64,000 nucleotides of DNA from an uncultured Bacteroidales bacterium (GTDB lineage: Bacteria > Bacteroidota > Bacteroidia > Bacteroidales > P3), in the NCBI GenBank assembly GCA_900318175.1, contig ONJQ01000009.1, positions 1 to 64,000 on the forward strand, given 5' to 3'. The notes under the pieces were generated by a model. The model made no database searches. It saw only the letters and a list, made by a program, of their open reading frames with translations, and was not told where the DNA came from. The position numbers and the translations under genes were made by a program. The first letter of the stretch is position 1; each line of letters starts with the position of its first letter. Shown here piece after piece: positions 2,426 through 11,482 of the stretch.

Positions 2426-5197
2426 CTATTGGAAGGAGACTTCGGCCTGGCAGGGGGTGAGGCCGCGTTTGAATTTGGTGTTGCCGTAGGCCGCCACATT
2501 GATGCGGTCGGGGTCAATGCCCTGTGCCACTATATAGCTGCGGATGGCTTTGGCGCGGCTCAATGAGAGGTCGTAGCTTTGGCGGTCGTCCGTGCCGGGC
2601 ACGTTGACGGAGACTTTGACCGTGCTGCCAGCATGCTGCCTAATGAAACGGACCACGTTGTCCAGCTCGGCGCTGGCCATGGGCAGCAGTCGTGCGGTGC
2701 CGGGGTAGAACTGCACAAGGGGCATAGGCAGGGGGGCGGCAAGCTTTCGCAGCTCGTCGAGGTCATAGCCCCGGAAGGCCACCGGGGCCTGCGTGCGTGC
2801 GGCCACGGAAAAGGCGGGGACATAGAGCCAGTCGGCAGTGACCAAGGCCACATAGGGCTTGCCCTTGTAGAGACGGAGGGGCATGAGGGTGTCGAGAGCC
2901 TCCTCGGCCAGATGGTGCACCGTCCGGCGGTTGGCGGGGTCGACAATGTCCAATCCGCGTGCCACGTCGAGCACCTGCGACAGGTTGAAGGTTACGGTGC
3001 GGTGGGCGTCAGCGGTGTCGTGGTCGACGGTGAAGGTGCTGGCAGCATAGTTGCCGCCGTGGGGCGAGCGAGAGGTGAGCAGCAGGAGCTGCTCATCGGC
3101 CATAAAGGCGACGGAGGCCTCGTCGAAACTGCCGTTGCACTCGCGCCCCAGGTTGACAGGGGTGCTCCAGTGGGACCAGTCGCCAATATCATTGCGGGAG
3201 GCGGTGTAGACATCGCCATAGCCCAGACCGCGGGCGTCGGTGACGAAGTAGAGGGTCTTCATGTTGCGGCTGAGGAGCGGGCTGCGCTCACAGTAGGGGC
3301 TGTTGACAGGCAGACCCAAGTTGACGGCTTCGCCCCACTGGCCGTCGTGCCAGGGGATGAAGTAGAGGTCCGTGGCCAAGGCCGTGTCGCCATGGAAGTA
3401 GGCGCCGGACTCCTGCACATTGTGCCCGCCGGGGCGGTCGGAGGCCAGCAGGAGACCGCTGCCGTCAGGCAGCATGTAGGCATCCGTCTCGACGTAGAGG
3501 GTGTTGACGGGCCGCGGGAGCGGCTTGGGGTCGGTCCAGAGGGTGTCGTTCAGCACACGGGCTGACCAGATGTCGTCGTTGATACCGAGAAGGACGCGCC
3601 GACCGTCGTCGTAGAAGCCGAAGGCGGTGACGGGGGCCGTGGTGCCTAAGATTGTGACGCGGCCGGCGGGTACCCAGGGGTTCTTGCCCTTGGGGCTGCG
3701 GCGGGCCATGGCCACGGTGCCGTCGGAGGTGCCTCCAGCCGAGGGGACGGTGTAATAGAGGCGGGTGCCGTCGGGGTGGGCAAAGAGGTGGTGCATGGGG
3801 CAGGCGGAGAGGAGCGGCGTGCGGTGGCCATGGCCACGCTCGGCCAAGAGGGCGGCGAGCTCGTTATACTCGCGCGTATTCAGTTCTTCAAAGCAGATGG
3901 CGAACTGCTGCAAGCGCAGCAGGGCGTTGGCCCACTCCTTGCGCGCTATCTGGCCTTGAAGGACGCGTTGCAGGGCCACGAAAGCGGCCTTGCGACCCAT
4001 GCAGAGGTGTATGCAATCGGTCATGCGGTCGATGTCGGCTTCGACAAAGGGCTTAGTAAGGTCAAAGGAATCGATGACGGCGCTGCGTGCCAGGTCGGAA
4101 CGGACGGCCATGAGGAAGGGGTAGTCGGGGTTGTCGGCGGCAAAGGCGGCGATGGGCTGGCGGTTGCCGTCGGCGGAGAACCAGCTGTAGTACTCTTTGT
4201 AGACGGCGGAGTAGTGCTCATCGAGGGGGAAACGCTGAAGGTAGAGGGTGGCGGCCTCCTGGTTGTGGTCGACCATGACCATGCGGCGCAGGGCGGCCAG
4301 CGCACTGTCCGCCAAGGGGCTGTCGGAATGGGTCAGGGCAAACTCGGCATAGTCCATCGGGGTGCGGAGCAAGCCATAGTCCATGGATTGGAGGGCTTGC
4401 AGACGGGCAAGGGCGTCGAGATAGTCGTCGCCACGGGGGTAGCGTTTCAGGTAAGAGGCATAGGCTGTCTGGGTGTTGGCCTGACAGGCGGCATAGTAGG
4501 CAATGCGGCTCTTCTGTCGCATGGCGGCATGCTGCATGGCGCTACTGGCCGGAAAGCGGGCGGCGGCGGTGTCGACGGCGGCATCGGTGTCAAAGGCGGA
4601 GAAGTAGCTGGTGGCCAAGCGGGAGAGGGCCGCCTGGGCGGAGTCGGCTTGGGCGGTGCCGGGATGGCTGAGGAGGAATTGATAGTAGGCCTCGATGGTG
4701 TTCTCGTTGCAGACCTGGAGGTAGTCGTCGTGAAGCTGGCAGGCGCGGATGCGGTTGGTGATGGCGCTGTTGTCGGCAAAGGTGGCGAGGTAGGTCTCCC
4801 GCTCCATGGTGCCCATGGCGGGGGCATGGGTGCGGACGTAGAGCTCGGCCTGTTCGATGACGGTCTGGTGCTGCTGGCGGATAAGGTTGAGGGTGATGCC
4901 TTTCTTGATGAGCTTTTGGAGGTCGCGATAACGGCCACGGTCCTGCAGCCAGGCGGTGTAGAGAGCCTCGGCACGGACCAGGTGGGTGGCGGCGGTGGCG
5001 AGGTTGCGCTGGGGGCTGTCCGGGTGGGAATAGTAGCGGGCCAGGTCAATGAGGTTGGCCACATCGTCGGGGTTCTTGGCGTAGGCACGGCTGAGGGTGA
5101 CGTAGAGTTGGCGGAACTCTTCGGTACGGTCGACCTCCTGCCCCACCACGACGGTGCAGAGCAGCACGGAGGCCATGAGTATCAACAATCTCTTCAT
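2426..5197 (-). CDS. exported TPR / PD40 beta-propeller / OmpA-like protein (PorE-like architecture)
   Basis: A 923-residue exported protein. Residues 1-19 form a signal peptide ending VVVGQ. Helical tetratricopeptide-like repeats fill about 25-440 (repeated A-Y-x-x-Y-L and Y-P-x-x-x-Y patterns). From about 455 to 760 there are PD40/WD40-like strands with SDRPGGHN, YGDVYTASRN and LLLTSRSPHGG. The last 110 residues are an OmpA-like peptidoglycan-binding domain (VQFYPGTARLLP, then LSLSRAKAIRSYIVAQGIDP and INVAAYGNTK). This order matches PorE of the type IX secretion system, but PorE is shorter and lipidated, whereas no lipobox is visible here, so I call it PorE-like only. It should sit in the periplasm or outer membrane. 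It is last in a tight operon (19-base gap to the gene before). Confidence 0.8.
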   Translation of the reverse strand: MKRLLILMASVLLCTVVVGQEVDRTEEFRQLYVTLSRAYAKNPDDVANLIDLARYYSHPDSPQRNLATAATHLVRAEALYTAWLQDRGRYRDLQKLIKKGITLNLIRQQHQTVIEQAELYVRTHAPAMGTMERETYLATFADNSAITNRIRACQLHDDYLQVCNENTIEAYYQFLLSHPGTAQADSAQAALSRLATSYFSAFDTDAAVDTAAARFPASSAMQHAAMRQKSRIAYYAACQANTQTAYASYLKRYPRGDDYLDALARLQALQSMDYGLLRTPMDYAEFALTHSDSPLADSALAALRRMVMVDHNQEAATLYLQRFPLDEHYSAVYKEYYSWFSADGNRQPIAAFAADNPDYPFLMAVRSDLARSAVIDSFDLTKPFVEADIDRMTDCIHLCMGRKAAFVALQRVLQGQIARKEWANALLRLQQFAICFEELNTREYNELAALLAERGHGHRTPLLSACPMHHLFAHPDGTRLYYTVPSAGGTSDGTVAMARRSPKGKNPWVPAGRVTILGTTAPVTAFGFYDDGRRVLLGINDDIWSARVLNDTLWTDPKPLPRPVNTLYVETDAYMLPDGSGLLLASDRPGGHNVQESGAYFHGDTALATDLYFIPWHDGQWGEAVNLGLPVNSPYCERSPLLSRNMKTLYFVTDARGLGYGDVYTASRNDIGDWSHWSTPVNLGRECNGSFDEASVAFMADEQLLLLTSRSPHGGNYAASTFTVDHDTADAHRTVTFNLSQVLDVARGLDIVDPANRRTVHHLAEEALDTLMPLRLYKGKPYVALVTADWLYVPAFSVAARTQAPVAFRGYDLDELRKLAAPLPMPLVQFYPGTARLLPMASAELDNVVRFIRQHAGSTVKVSVNVPGTDDRQSYDLSLSRAKAIRSYIVAQGIDPDRINVAAYGNTKFKRGLTPCQAEVSFQ

Positions 5198-8004: not shown

Positions 8005-8134
8005 CGAAAGTTATTCGGTATATTGAGTTTTTATATAAAAATAGCCGTTGTAGTATTTCTGCACACCTGACACACCGCCCAGATTTGTCACTTTGCTTAT
8101 GGTGCAAATGATACATAGGTAGGGTCTATACCAT

Positions 8135-8501
8135 CTCTTTTGAGAGCGCGACCTTTCGCGGCGCAGCATCTGCGTTGCCGATTAACTCCACAGTAGGTGC
8201 GGGGTACTTGAGAGTCTGCCTCTACGAGGCAACTAACAGATGTCTACAATAGGGGATCTCCAGTTTTTGTATATATGTCGCGTCCCTTTGGGACGCAGCT
8301 CCCTGATGTCTGTGTGCCACGGCACTGCGCCTTCGGCTTGTACCATGTTATTAAAAGTCCCACCTCTACGAGGCGATTTATAGAAGTCACCGTATTGTGA
8401 TTCTATATTAATTAATCACCCCAACGGGGTGGGATATGAATAACACCGTACGAAGTGCGGTGATTATCTGTGGCAATAGAGCGCGTCCCGACAGGGACGC
8501 G
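8135..8501. repeat. cluster of short REP-like palindromes
   Basis: At least six short hairpins occur in under 400 bases: GCCTC-TAC-GAGGC (8218-8230), GCGTCCC-TTT-GGGACGC (8280-8296), CCTC-TAC-GAGG (8363-8373), CACCCC-AAC-GGGGTG (8417-8431), CACCGTAC-GAA-GTGCGGTG (8444-8462) and CGCGTCCC-GACA-GGGACGCG (8482-8501). Stems differ but loops are three or four bases. Such arrays are typical REP-like debris in Bacteroidota intergenic DNA. None is followed by a T-run. Confidence 0.75.
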
Positions 8502-8725
8502 ACATGAAAACACAAAAGCACCCTTCCATTGTTCTTCACCCCATGAGTCCTATCATCGCCTATGGCTCAATAAAGACGGGCATTCCTTGCCGGCGGCTTG
8601 TTGCCTTTGCTCTGGCAGCTGCGGAACCGCTCACAGGAGTGGAGTTAGGGTGGAACCAGGGTGAGGACACTCCGCCCCTCCCCCCACTCTTTTTCATGCG
8701 GGGGTAAAAAAAAAAGACTGGGCGG

Positions 8726-8762
8726 TGTAGTATTTTGGATAGTTGTTACGTTATTATTGGCG
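8726..8762 (+). promoter_or_regulatory. ECF-type promoter of the sigma-factor operon (proposed)
   Basis: TGTAG (8726-8730), twelve variable bases, then TTGTTACGTT (8743-8752) and TTAT-GGCG (to 8762). The same arrangement, with identical spacing, lies before the lipoprotein gene at 10910. It is unlike the TAnnTTTG promoters elsewhere, as expected for a promoter read by the alternative sigma factor encoded right here. Confidence 0.65.
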
Positions 8763-9229
8763 TGAGAACAAAGAATCCTTTTGATGAGCTGCTCCACCGC
8801 TACCGCGGGTTGCTGTTTTCCCTCTGTAGCCATTTTCGCCACAGGGGGCTGGATACGGATGACTTGATACAGGAGGCGACCATCGCCTTGTGGAAGAATA
8901 GAGAGCGGCTGCTATCGATGAGCGGCCCCTCGCAAGCAGCACTGACTTGGAAGATAGCCCGCAACGCGGTAATCGACACCCTGCGGCGGATAGAGGACAG
9001 CGAAGCACTGCCCGAAAGCTACGACCAAAGGGAGGAGGACCGCTCGCTGGTGGAGGAGCTGCACGAGGTGATTGCACAGCTGAACGAACCCGACAGGACC
9101 ATCGTGACAATGAAACTGGAGGGGTACTCGTACAAGGAGATTGCCCTAAAGCTGGACACAACCGAGAAGAACGTGAGTGTGAGACTGGTGCGCGTGAAAG
9201 ACAAACTGAGAAAAGAAATGACAAAATAA
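8762..9229 (+). CDS. ECF-family RNA polymerase sigma-70 factor
   Basis: A 155-residue sigma factor when started at the GTG at 8762. Region 2 spans about 9-75 (DELLHRYRGLLFSLC, DTDDLIQEATIALWKN, ALTWKIARNAVIDTLRR); region 4 spans about 100-152 (IAQLNEPDRTIVTMKLEGYS, YKEIALKLDTTEKNVSVRLV with the helix-turn-helix, then RVKDKLRKEM). Regions 1.1 and 3 are absent, which defines the ECF group; it directs RNA polymerase to a small set of promoters. An earlier in-frame TTG at 8735 would place the coding start inside the conserved promoter element, so I prefer GTG 8762; if the promoter's start site is where expected, the message would be almost leaderless. It is followed after eight bases by a one-helix protein, the usual position of an anti-sigma factor. 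Confidence 0.9.
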   Translation: MRTKNPFDELLHRYRGLLFSLCSHFRHRGLDTDDLIQEATIALWKNRERLLSMSGPSQAALTWKIARNAVIDTLRRIEDSEALPESYDQREEDRSLVEELHEVIAQLNEPDRTIVTMKLEGYSYKEIALKLDTTEKNVSVRLVRVKDKLRKEMTK

Positions 9230-9237
9230 AAGATATT

Positions 9238-9519
9238 ATGAACGAAGAACGTTTTGAAGAGATCTGGGAGAGAGCAGAGGCTGAACAATACGGCCAACGG
9301 CTGGCAGCAGAGTACCCCGCCTGGCGTACACGGCGCAACCGCATGGCAGGCGTGGCAATGCTGACGCTGGCAGCAGTGGGTATCGGCCTGCCCCTGTGGC
9401 AGACATCGCTCCAGCCCGCCCACCAAGAGGAGGGTTACACCGTTGCCTACTGCAACCGCCCAGACATCGCCGACCAATACTGGGCCAACATGGCAGACGA
9501 ACTGCTGATGAATAGCTGA
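9238..9519 (+). CDS. small single-helix membrane protein, candidate anti-sigma factor
   Basis: A 93-residue protein starting MNEERFEEIWERAEAEQYG. Residues about 1-34 are charged and helical, about 35-55 form a membrane helix (MAGVAMLTLAAVGIGLPLW), and the rest is a short tail with two cysteine-free polar stretches that would lie in the periplasm. No family is recognised. Position directly after an ECF sigma gene, cytoplasmic helix plus one membrane segment, and small size are what is expected of Bacteroidota anti-sigma proteins, but there is no zinc-binding or FecR motif, so the role is inferred from context. Confidence 0.72.
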   Translation: MNEERFEEIWERAEAEQYGQRLAAEYPAWRTRRNRMAGVAMLTLAAVGIGLPLWQTSLQPAHQEEGYTVAYCNRPDIADQYWANMADELLMNS

Positions 9520-9537
9520 TAAAAAAAGATGACGATT

Positions 9538-9972
9538 ATGAAACGATTATTATTGATAATACTGTTGCCGCTGGCGTTGCTTACCGGCTGCTCCCACGAG
9601 AAGAAGGAGTATTCGGTGAGCGAGCTGTACCAACACTATGCCGAACGCCAGAATCTGAACGTTGCCCAGGTCGAGGGATTCAGCCTCAACGACTCGGTAA
9701 GTGTGGAGGTGATACTGATGGAAACCGACGACGAAAATGTCTGGCAACAGCTGAAGGAAGAGTTCAACATACAAGGCGACGAGGGGACGGTGAGCTGGCT
9801 CGGCAATTCGGACAACCCCGCCGTCCGCACACAATGGACAGGCATACCGGTGATGCGCGTCATTGCCTCGCTCGACAAACATACCATCGGCATCTACCGT
9901 ATCGACAATGAGATGCAGTACGACGCCATTGTGGATTACCAACTTGAGAAAACAAAAAAAGGAATAAAATAA
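9538..9972 (+). CDS. lipoprotein of the sigma-factor operon
   Basis: A 144-residue lipoprotein: signal MKRLLLIILLPLALLTGC with lipobox LTGC (Cys18). The mature protein has alternating strands (VSVEVILMETDDENVW, TGIPVMRVIASLDKHTIGIY) but no recognised domain. An alternative start 9 bases upstream (9529) would add MTI; the chosen ATG gives a standard basic N-terminus. It follows the candidate anti-sigma gene by 18 bases and precedes another lipoprotein by 14 bases, so all four are likely one transcript. Role unknown; envelope sensing is a guess from the operon. Confidence 0.8.
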   Translation: MKRLLLIILLPLALLTGCSHEKKEYSVSELYQHYAERQNLNVAQVEGFSLNDSVSVEVILMETDDENVWQQLKEEFNIQGDEGTVSWLGNSDNPAVRTQWTGIPVMRVIASLDKHTIGIYRIDNEMQYDAIVDYQLEKTKKGIK

Positions 9973-9986
9973 AGAATTACATCAAT

Positions 9987-10796
9987 ATGAAAAGCACATT
10001 CAAACTCACTACGTTGCTGGCGACATTAGTTCTCCTCACCACTGCATGCGAGAAACCCGAAAACCCCACCGGGAACGGCAGCAACAACAGCGACCCCAAA
10101 GAACGCACCATTGTCTACGCGGTAGGTGAAAACGAAAACCGCACGACCCTGAGAAACGAAGGCGAATGGGATGTCCTGCTGGACCAGTTCTGCAAACAGG
10201 CACAGGAGGGCAGCGAGGTGGTGTTCTACAATATGAGCCAAACGACCTACCTCCAAAGCAAAGGAACTTCCAAGACCAACAGAACCATCACCACCACCAG
10301 CCGTGACGAGATGAAGCAATGGATGAAGGACATGGAGAAGCAGGGCCTCACGGTGAGGGTCACCTACAACGACTCCACCGGGACCTGGCACGGCGAAGCT
10401 TACGCCACCGCACCAACCACCAACACCAATGACATGATAATAGGAACGTGGCGCTTGAACTGCATGGTGGTGACCCAGACAGACGAGAATGACCAACTGG
10501 TGAATAGCGACCTATTCGCTCCCTTTGAGGGCAGCACGATGTACTACAGGTTCTACAACGACGGCTCGATGACGATATCTGTTGTCAACAGTATCGACAG
10601 CGTCACCGACTCGGGTACATGGAGACTCACATCCGACGGTGAACTCAGCTCGGAGATGCTGCCCAACGGCGTGAACTGGAATGTGAACTGGATTTCCCCC
10701 TATAGCATGATTCTCTCGCGCAGCGACCTCGGCACCGACAACGGGAACTATTTCTACCAGTTGCAGTTCGATGCGGTAACTACAACAAAAAAATAA
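9987..10796 (+). CDS. lipoprotein with lipocalin-like C-terminal half
   Basis: A 269-residue lipoprotein, lipobox TTAC (Cys21), followed by an Asn/Gly/Pro linker. Residues about 40-140 contain a Ser/Thr-rich segment of unknown fold. Residues about 148-265 begin DMIIGTWRLNCMVVTQ and continue with FYNDGSMTISVVN, SGTWRLTSDGEL and YSMILSRSD, the strand order of the lipocalin-like domains often seen in Bacteroidota lipoproteins (GTW-x-L start, second GTW-x-L strand). Ligand unknown. It ends the sigma-factor operon; a separate promoter element follows at 10814. Confidence 0.8.
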   Translation: MKSTFKLTTLLATLVLLTTACEKPENPTGNGSNNSDPKERTIVYAVGENENRTTLRNEGEWDVLLDQFCKQAQEGSEVVFYNMSQTTYLQSKGTSKTNRTITTTSRDEMKQWMKDMEKQGLTVRVTYNDSTGTWHGEAYATAPTTNTNDMIIGTWRLNCMVVTQTDENDQLVNSDLFAPFEGSTMYYRFYNDGSMTISVVNSIDSVTDSGTWRLTSDGELSSEMLPNGVNWNVNWISPYSMILSRSDLGTDNGNYFYQLQFDAVTTTKK

Positions 10797-10813
10797 AAAA
10801 AATCACGCCCATC

Positions 10814-10850
10814 TGTAGCTTTTCACCGACTTGTTACGTTCTTATGGGCG
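10814..10850 (+). promoter_or_regulatory. second ECF-type promoter element, upstream of lipoprotein gene
   Basis: TGTAG (10814-10818), twelve bases containing TTTTCACC, then TTGTTACGTT (10831-10840) and CTTATGGGCG. Compared with 8726-8762 the outer blocks match with the same spacing and only two mismatches in the last 20 bases. The gene start lies 60 bases downstream. Confidence 0.65.
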
Positions 10851-10909
10851 AAATCAATCAAGCAAAACAAATCAATCAAATTTATTAATCAAATTAAAAA
10901 AGCACAACC

Positions 10910-11482
10910 ATGAAGAAGAAACTTTTCATCATCGCTGCCGCCGCCATGTTGCTCGGCATGACCGCCTGCCAAAAGGAACAGATCACCCCGAACAATCCCG
11001 GTAACAATGTTACCAACACTCTGGTGACCTCCACCTCTGACCTGATTAGTACTAACTGGACTGCCAACCTCAACCTCACCGACCTGCTGTTTGCCATGAC
11101 TGGCATGAACCTCAGCGACTTTGGCTGCGACACCGTAATCGGTTTCGACTCCGCCCTGGTCTTCCACATCGAATTTGACTCCAACTATGCACACCTCACC
11201 TTCTCGGAAAACATGGACGTTACCAACGTGACCGAGATTGCCGGCGAATACAGCATCGAGCAGATTGAGCAGATGAACTTCGCCTATGTATATGACCCCG
11301 CCACCCACACTGGCACCCTCACTGCTGCAGGTGTTGACGAGAACAACAACCCCATCAACTACCAAATCGCTTTCACCTACAGCGAGACCGACGACACCAT
11401 TACCATCAACCTTCTCTTCGCCAACGCCGAAGACGAGGATACGACAATCAGCTTCCCCCTGGTGTTCCACCGCGATATCTAA
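10910..11482 (+). CDS. lipoprotein, probable sigma-regulon member
   Basis: A 190-residue lipoprotein: signal MKKKLFIIAAAAMLLGMTAC, Cys20 lipidated. The mature protein is Asn/Thr/Asp-rich with repeated short strands (TANLNLTDLLFAM, ALVFHIEFDSNYAHLTF, YQIAFTYSETDDTITINLLF), a beta-rich fold. No family is recognised. It has its own promoter element matching that of the sigma operon, so it is probably controlled by the same ECF factor. The AT-rich leader of about 60 bases and a strong terminator after the gene suggest high expression. Confidence 0.82.
   Translation: MKKKLFIIAAAAMLLGMTACQKEQITPNNPGNNVTNTLVTSTSDLISTNWTANLNLTDLLFAMTGMNLSDFGCDTVIGFDSALVFHIEFDSNYAHLTFSENMDVTNVTEIAGEYSIEQIEQMNFAYVYDPATHTGTLTAAGVDENNNPINYQIAFTYSETDDTITINLLFANAEDEDTTISFPLVFHRDI

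Follow-up and report, generated by a model that had tools for sequence, protein, structure and literature searches.

A probable autoregulated extracytoplasmic function sigma factor regulon with its own promoter pattern in an uncultured Bacteroidales bacterium

Positions 8,726 to 11,482 of contig ONJQ01000009.1, from assembly GCA_900318175.1 of an uncultured Bacteroidales bacterium of the rumen, carry a small gene cluster built around an extracytoplasmic function (ECF) sigma factor, which probably regulates its own operon. The window analysed is the first 64,000 nucleotides of this contig (C22:1-64000), and the whole genome comprises 2,902,921 bases in 70 contigs at 91.78% completeness. The gene calls of the initial annotation, a sigma gene with a GTG start, a one-helix protein and three lipoproteins, hold at the following positions.

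8726..8752, + strand: promoter P1 of the sigma operon; -35-like TGTAGTATTT, -10-like TACGTT, 18 bases from TGTAG to CGTT
8753..8761, + strand: ATTATTGGC, from CGTT to the start codon; probable transcription start region, giving a predicted leader of about 0-4 nt
8762..9229, + strand: ECF sigma factor P0001, 155 amino acids (aa), GTG start; Sigma70_r2 8.1e-13 and Sigma70_r4_2 2.3e-13 (Pfam), TIGR02937 1e-24
9238..9519, + strand: candidate anti-sigma factor P0002, 93 aa; predicted cytosolic N-terminus of ~35 residues and one membrane helix, with YCNR and ADELL in a short periplasmic tail
9538..9972, + strand: lipoprotein P0003, 144 aa, probably periplasmic; no Pfam family and no significant PDB fold match
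9987..10796, + strand: lipoprotein P0004, 269 aa; unnamed N-terminal domain and lipocalin-like C-terminal barrel
10814..10840, + strand: promoter P2 of the next lipoprotein gene; TGTAGCTTTT...TACGTT, start codon 69 nt past CGTT
10910..11482, + strand: lipoprotein P0005, 190 aa; CQKEQ after the lipobox, resembling a surface-export signal

Both transcription units open with the same layout, TGTAG-N12-TTGTTACGTT and then NTTATNGGCG, which a pattern search of the window placed at 8726-8762 and 10814-10850. As had been reported, the spacing is identical; the final 20 bases differ at two positions. The window holds these two matches at 0 mismatches and four others at 3 mismatches, where 0.96 would be expected at up to 3. 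The initial annotation had proposed searching the complete genome and close relatives. TGTAG-N12-TTGTTACGTT has three exact copies in the whole genome and none in the reversed-pattern control; the third copy lies beyond the window on another contig, at C69:36911-36937. A looser pattern recovered the same sites with no more than 1 mismatch; its three next-best matches, with 2 mismatches each, fall to the level of the reversed control (4). Another pattern, allowed up to 3 mismatches, found only these three sites, each at 1 mismatch (control 5). The 20-base right half alone gave 4 matches at up to 3 mismatches, against 4 in the control, three of them being the known sites (0, 0 and 2 mismatches). 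The pattern is therefore not common at unrelated genes of its own genome, the outcome that had been named as speaking against a regulon: there are three sites at 0-1 mismatches and the rest are at control level. By its sequence, the pattern is a bipartite ECF-type promoter, TGTAGTTTTT-N13-CGTT.

P0001 has the make-up of an ECF (group 4) sigma factor, with Sigma70_r2 and Sigma70_r4_2 above the Pfam cut-off in 155 aa and no other domains. Its best PDB matches are SigW, SigE and SigH. Against NF058625, which covers ECF factors of the PG0214 / GFO_1088 type, it scored 74.6 bits, under the curated cut-off of 130. The promoter likewise looks ECF-like, with two blocks, CGT in the -10 and a copy before the sigma gene itself. 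The named contigs with the closest relatives of the sigma factor belong to Bacteroidales or Bacteroidetes assemblies, mostly metagenomic and many titled as coming from the rumen or other ruminant stomachs.

Promoter conservation was followed upstream of 126 sigma relatives and 90 P0005 homologues, taken from 141 partly overlapping loci after removal of duplicates over the last 120 bases. TGTA[G/A] is followed by CGTT before 118 of the 126 sigma relatives, at 18 bases in 110 and at 19 in 8; 96 of these 118 promoters are of the TGTAG type and 22 of the TGTAA type. TGTAG-N18-CGTT precedes 74 of the 90 P0005 homologues, 44 to 109 nt ahead of the start and with 18 bases in all 74. An A/T-rich stretch lies directly upstream of both the sigma-type and the lipoprotein-type promoters. 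Of 95 TGTAG-type sigma promoters, 91% have A directly after CGTT; of the 74 lipoprotein promoters, 93% have C there. The pattern is thus conserved in close relatives within the genus. This conservation supports well, albeit by sequence only, the proposed ECF sigma factor that regulates itself through a promoter code of its own.

The sites can also be counted genome by genome. A pattern of 20 fixed bases, allowed up to 2 mismatches, has 204 sites in 119 genomes of the genus against 8 for the control, with at least one site in 83 of the 119; some of the 204 are TGTAA sites of a paralogue. Among 89 genomes searched for both features, which are related and of varied completeness, a motif site is present in 54 of the 59 with a sigma relative (E<=1e-20) and in 5 of the 30 without one.

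The paralogue lies in tandem with the sigma gene, ~2.7 to 4.2 kb downstream, in 14 of 59 listed loci. It has TGTAA in place of TGTAG and a different region-4 recognition helix. Among 118 different sigma proteins, the 95 of the TGTAG type carry S139 (94 of 95), K136 (93) and either E135 (77) or V135 (17), and the 23 of the TGTAA type carry G139 (23 of 23), K135 (23) and N136 (22). The two types also differ at position 143 and outside region 4.

By the usual ECF geometry, transcription of the sigma gene would start at its first codon or within a few bases upstream of it. The distance from CGTT to the conserved sigma start is 8-9 nt in 101 of 118 cases, and TGTAA-type genes begin 8 nt past CGTT in 19 of 23. 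Where the distance is at most 12 nt (109 sigma genes), 98 genes start with GTG and 9 with ATG; the other 2 have neither codon, and their homology-based start is probably misplaced. The sigma gene is thus probably leaderless with a mostly GTG start, and the P0005 genes have leaders. It is unlikely that the sigma message has a leader after all, either through translation from an in-frame TTG at 8735 or through transcription from another promoter further upstream. That TTG is open in frame in the window and another in-frame ATG, GTG or TTG occurs upstream in 66 of the 109 relatives, but the TTG sits within the promoter, 43 of the 109 show no such start when followed upstream as far as a stop codon or the limit of the 260 bases covered, and the conserved start keeps its position past CGTT. 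Leaderless messages made up 5.5% of mapped mRNAs in one study (PMC9723704), and leaders under 10 nt ~3.7% in another (PMC7366714).

The initial annotation had also put forward the one-helix protein as a candidate anti-sigma partner, a suggestion that genus-wide sequence comparison supports. By a simple hydropathy count, all 91 P0002 homologues have one hydrophobic segment near residue 37, its strongest window starting at residue 36-42. Positive charge is higher N-terminal of the helix than after it in 88 of the 91, and 82 carry a Cys-Asn pair. In 40 aligned sequences, F6, W10 and W29 before the helix and N73 and W82 after it are invariant. A P0002 match comes next after the first sigma match in 59 of 59 listed loci; the second-copy sigma gene in locus L078 has no P0002 match. 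With a cytosolic part of ~35 residues and no Pfam match above the cut-off, P0002 lacks a recognisable class I anti-sigma domain (ASDI, at least 50 residues). A cytosolic segment under 50 residues joined to a membrane helix does agree with the size and topology of class II (CnrY-like) factors.

The sigma factor might nonetheless control P1 and P2 with P0002 playing no anti-sigma part, another protein or sigma expression alone providing the control. The brevity of the cytosolic part and the want of a recognised anti-sigma domain lend this idea something. We give it little credence, as P0002 follows the first sigma gene in every listed locus, has one helix in positive-inside topology and is matched by a membrane protein at the same place in other cassettes (see below), and as there are precedents for short class II anti-sigma factors, CnrY among them (PMC4598750, PMC7406223).

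The lipoproteins are less uniform. A lipobox is present in 51 of 90 P0003 homologues, and the listed ones without it have a plain signal peptide; this split makes a periplasmic location likely. A Pfam scan of 48 P0003 members at E<=0.5 found weak DUF6491 matches in 12 (best 6.8e-4) and none to DUF4252, which was accordingly rejected as the family; the window copy aligns to DUF6491 over residues 1-50 at 15.6 bits, against a cut-off of 27.5. The predicted model of P0004 (pLDDT 81) matches many lipocalins in Foldseek at probability 1.0, with E-values from 2e-4 and target TM-scores mostly of 0.36-0.47, that is, below 0.5. It matches a DUF3598 protein best (6.7e-5) and, among others, a surface glycan-binding protein; the C-terminal placement of the putative barrel is read from the strands of the model. 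C-x-K-(D/E)2 follows the lipobox in 37 of 74 P0005 homologues, the window copy having CQKEQ. C-X-K-(D/E)2 is a surface-export signal (LES) demonstrated in other genera (PMC5080379). P0004 and P0005 were considered as one family and rejected, the profile comparison aligning signal peptides only. Thus the earlier statement that no partner belongs to a recognised family holds insofar as the lipoproteins are unnamed in Pfam, and falls short for the lipocalin-like domain of P0004 and the surface-export-like signal of P0005.

Further predicted members of the regulon lie elsewhere. Sites were picked from among the matches listed, mostly away from the home locus, in 40 regions of which two were already in the set. 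Locus L004 and the 38 new loci yielded 38 sites, of which 35 are followed by a reading frame and 3 are not; no site at 2 mismatches was present in L247. The 35 genes include 10 with a type IX sorting tail, 8 Omp28 genes, 7 with fibronectin domains and 4 sigma genes, and by eye several others are lipoproteins of P0004 or P0005 type. Some of these frames are cut by contig or fetch ends, and L237, L240 and L242 resemble chance matches. In the genome of the window, the third site, on C69, precedes six closely spaced genes. Omp28 comes first, bearing a type IX tail; a lipoprotein (by eye) separates it from two C10-family peptidases, each with such a tail, and a further pair of lipoproteins (by eye) closes the set, its last member carrying an InlB-type repeat domain. 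Predicted targets away from the home locus are thus often Omp28 or type IX-tailed proteins. The three lipoproteins and the one-helix protein had been proposed as the targets; the sequences of P1 and P2 support this for these genes, and the predicted regulon extends to a third promoter, on C69.

Sequence comparison supports the promoter pattern, its conservation in the genus, the gene families and the topology. From these we infer a mechanism in which the ECF sigma operon at 8762-10796 would be autoregulated and 10814-11482 would form another transcription unit of its regulon. The sigma factor would recognise TGTAGTTTTT-N13-CGTT. The 9238 protein would hold it at the inner membrane, the short cytosolic N-terminus acting as a minimal anti-sigma domain. 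P0003 may dock on, or otherwise read, the short periplasmic tail of the anti-sigma factor and so report an envelope condition. Once released, the sigma factor would transcribe its own operon from P1, as a leaderless message starting at GTG, together with the 10910 lipoprotein gene from P2 and the Omp28/C10-peptidase/lipoprotein operon on C69 from the third site. Judging from the targets, a load on the envelope or on secretion might be the signal, though this is a guess. A regulon directed at a small number of surface or secreted proteins would best explain the findings taken together, and we consider an autoregulated ECF sigma regulon with P0002 as anti-sigma factor, P0003 as envelope sensor and P1, P2 and C69 as targets to be quite probable. 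That the motif is instead an operator bound by a separate activator or repressor protein, with a housekeeping promoter driving the genes, is very improbable: the conserved block does exceed a bare -35/-10 pair, running past CGTT into TTAT and, in 2 of the 3 own sites, GGCG, but its two blocks keep a nearly fixed 18-base spacing, it stands at the sigma gene itself, its -35 differs with the paralogous sigma factor and CGT occupies the -10 as in the ECF-type SM6 motif of Flavobacterium psychrophilum (PMC9723704).

Several results weigh against the proposed regulon. The pattern is missing at 8 of the 126 sigma genes and 16 of the 90 lipoprotein genes, and 5 of the 59 genomes having a sigma relative carry no site. 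Some of the co-occurrence of sigma factor and motif is to be expected in any case, since P1 is carried along with the gene and the genomes share ancestry. A shorter pattern at 1 mismatch gave 77 sites against 54 for the control in 89 genomes of the genus. In 59 genomes of other genera it gave 23 against 66 for the reversed control, and these matches, being below the control, were not taken as real. Since the short pattern is noisy, the case rests on the fuller motif and its position. The contrast between TGTAG and TGTAA is in essence one split between two clades, and covariation of sigma residues with promoter bases inside the TGTAG clade gave no region-4 signal. P0002 scores above cut-off with no anti-sigma family in scans of Pfam and a second family library, and its profile, compared with solved structures, found only two unrelated receptor chains (E 0.2 and 0.25). 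Lastly, at E<=0.001 nothing in the PDB matches the P0003 model (pLDDT 86.8).

Other features of the window were also noted. All other promoters had been said to use TAnnTTTG. This word is in excess, at 41 occurrences against 21.5 expected, a tally made over the window as a whole. Upstream of the sigma operon, at 8120-8660, lies a cluster of short G+C-rich hairpin-like repeats (e.g. CCTCTACGAGG and GTCCCGACAGGGACGCGAC), in which a repeat finder reported three 26-nt copies and one inverted pair. An Rfam scan of the window returned a tRNA as its sole match.

Related cassettes occur in the same genome. A P0003 profile found five further genes in it and three in another family, and all eight of these P0003-like genes are preceded by an ECF sigma gene and a gene for a membrane protein. 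The five in the own genome, each in the order ECF sigma / membrane protein / P0003-like, are:

L258, on contig C40
L259, on contig C20
L260, on contig C30
L261, on contig C65
L262, on contig C48

Both sigma regions are above the Pfam cut-off in seven of the eight cassettes, L259 falling just below. The second-gene membrane protein has one hydrophobic segment in seven and three in L262. A C-N-x-x-C tail ends five of these eight membrane proteins; L261 has C-D-N-N-C, and L258 and L262 have neither. Other upstream words are visible by eye at the own-genome cassettes, for example TGTGATTTTT...CGTTTAAT before L261:2160. A Pfam scan of four of the eight P0003 relatives gave no match at 0.01. The C48 cassette is weak, its P0003-like match being short or read through a stop: the P0003-like stretch at L262 ~3320-3793 contains one TAA in the profile match, and is possibly broken or in a different frame. 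A P0004-like domain follows in this cassette (BLASTP E 3e-14); one suspected by eye in the C40 cassette was not borne out by BLASTP (E 24). A further ECF-like sigma gene of the genome, at L263:2839 on contig C19, has no P0003-like neighbour, and TGTAGTTTTTTCGG lies upstream of it with no CGTT at the usual distance. Across 295 genomes of the order, the P0003 profile matched in 4 (the own genome and three of one other family) and the P0002 profile in 1 (the own genome); a widened P0003 profile matched in 1 of 345 genomes of the phylum, again the own. Among the rows listed for these order and phylum samples there is no other genome of the own genus.

The closest parallels are found in other bacterial regulators. 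The ECF-type SM6 promoter of F. psychrophilum has targets that include type IX secretion genes (PMC9723704). Unlike SM6 or autoregulated ECF operons in general, the present system has TGTAGTTTTT as its -35, a probably leaderless sigma gene and a regulon of three promoters, and its predicted targets are lipoproteins and type IX-tailed proteins rather than the secretion machinery. SigP of Porphyromonas gingivalis is likewise an ECF sigma factor linked to type IX secretion in Bacteroidota (PMC8265659, PMC4800418), but it acts on type IX component genes with PorX/PorY, whereas here some predicted targets carry the sorting tail. CnrY/CnrH of class II resembles P0002 and P0001 in its short cytosolic anti-sigma segment and separate periplasmic partner (PMC4598750, PMC7406223). 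Membrane anchoring is a further likeness. Unlike CnrY/CnrH, however, the P0002 profile has no related solved structure and P0003 has no significant fold match. The Das/Dma ECF21 systems of Bacteroides thetaiotaomicron also combine a Bacteroidota ECF sigma factor and a membrane anti-sigma factor in one operon, Dma2 chiefly regulating its own operon and polysaccharide loci (PMC13088901). P0002 differs from Dma: at 93 aa, of which roughly 40 residues come after the point where the tail begins, it has neither a long tether nor a C-terminal beta-barrel.

Tentatively, and at somewhat less than even confidence, we suggest that these loci form a lineage-specific class of envelope cassettes. Each would combine an ECF sigma factor, a minimal anti-sigma factor (~35 cytosolic residues in the window type) whose short periplasmic tail has a Cys-Asn pair and a periplasmic protein of new fold that reads this tail. 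A genome would hold several such cassettes, every one with a -35 word of its own, and in the TGTAG and TGTAA branches the sigma gene would be leaderless. According to PMC7406223, a class I anti-sigma gene adjoins only 6% of Bacteroidota ECF factors, and the retrieval used there dropped domains under 50 residues. If real, the cassette class would fill part of this gap in anti-sigma partners. The cassette of the window provides a concrete candidate of the size that was dropped. It also offers a small predicted regulon whose two-letter promoter code (TGTAG/TGTAA) is paired with two recognition-helix types and can be tested in vitro without culture. Finally, it provides a genus-wide instance of a regulator gene that probably lacks a leader and mostly starts with GTG; in the phylum, according to the studies cited above, leaderless messages are a small minority.

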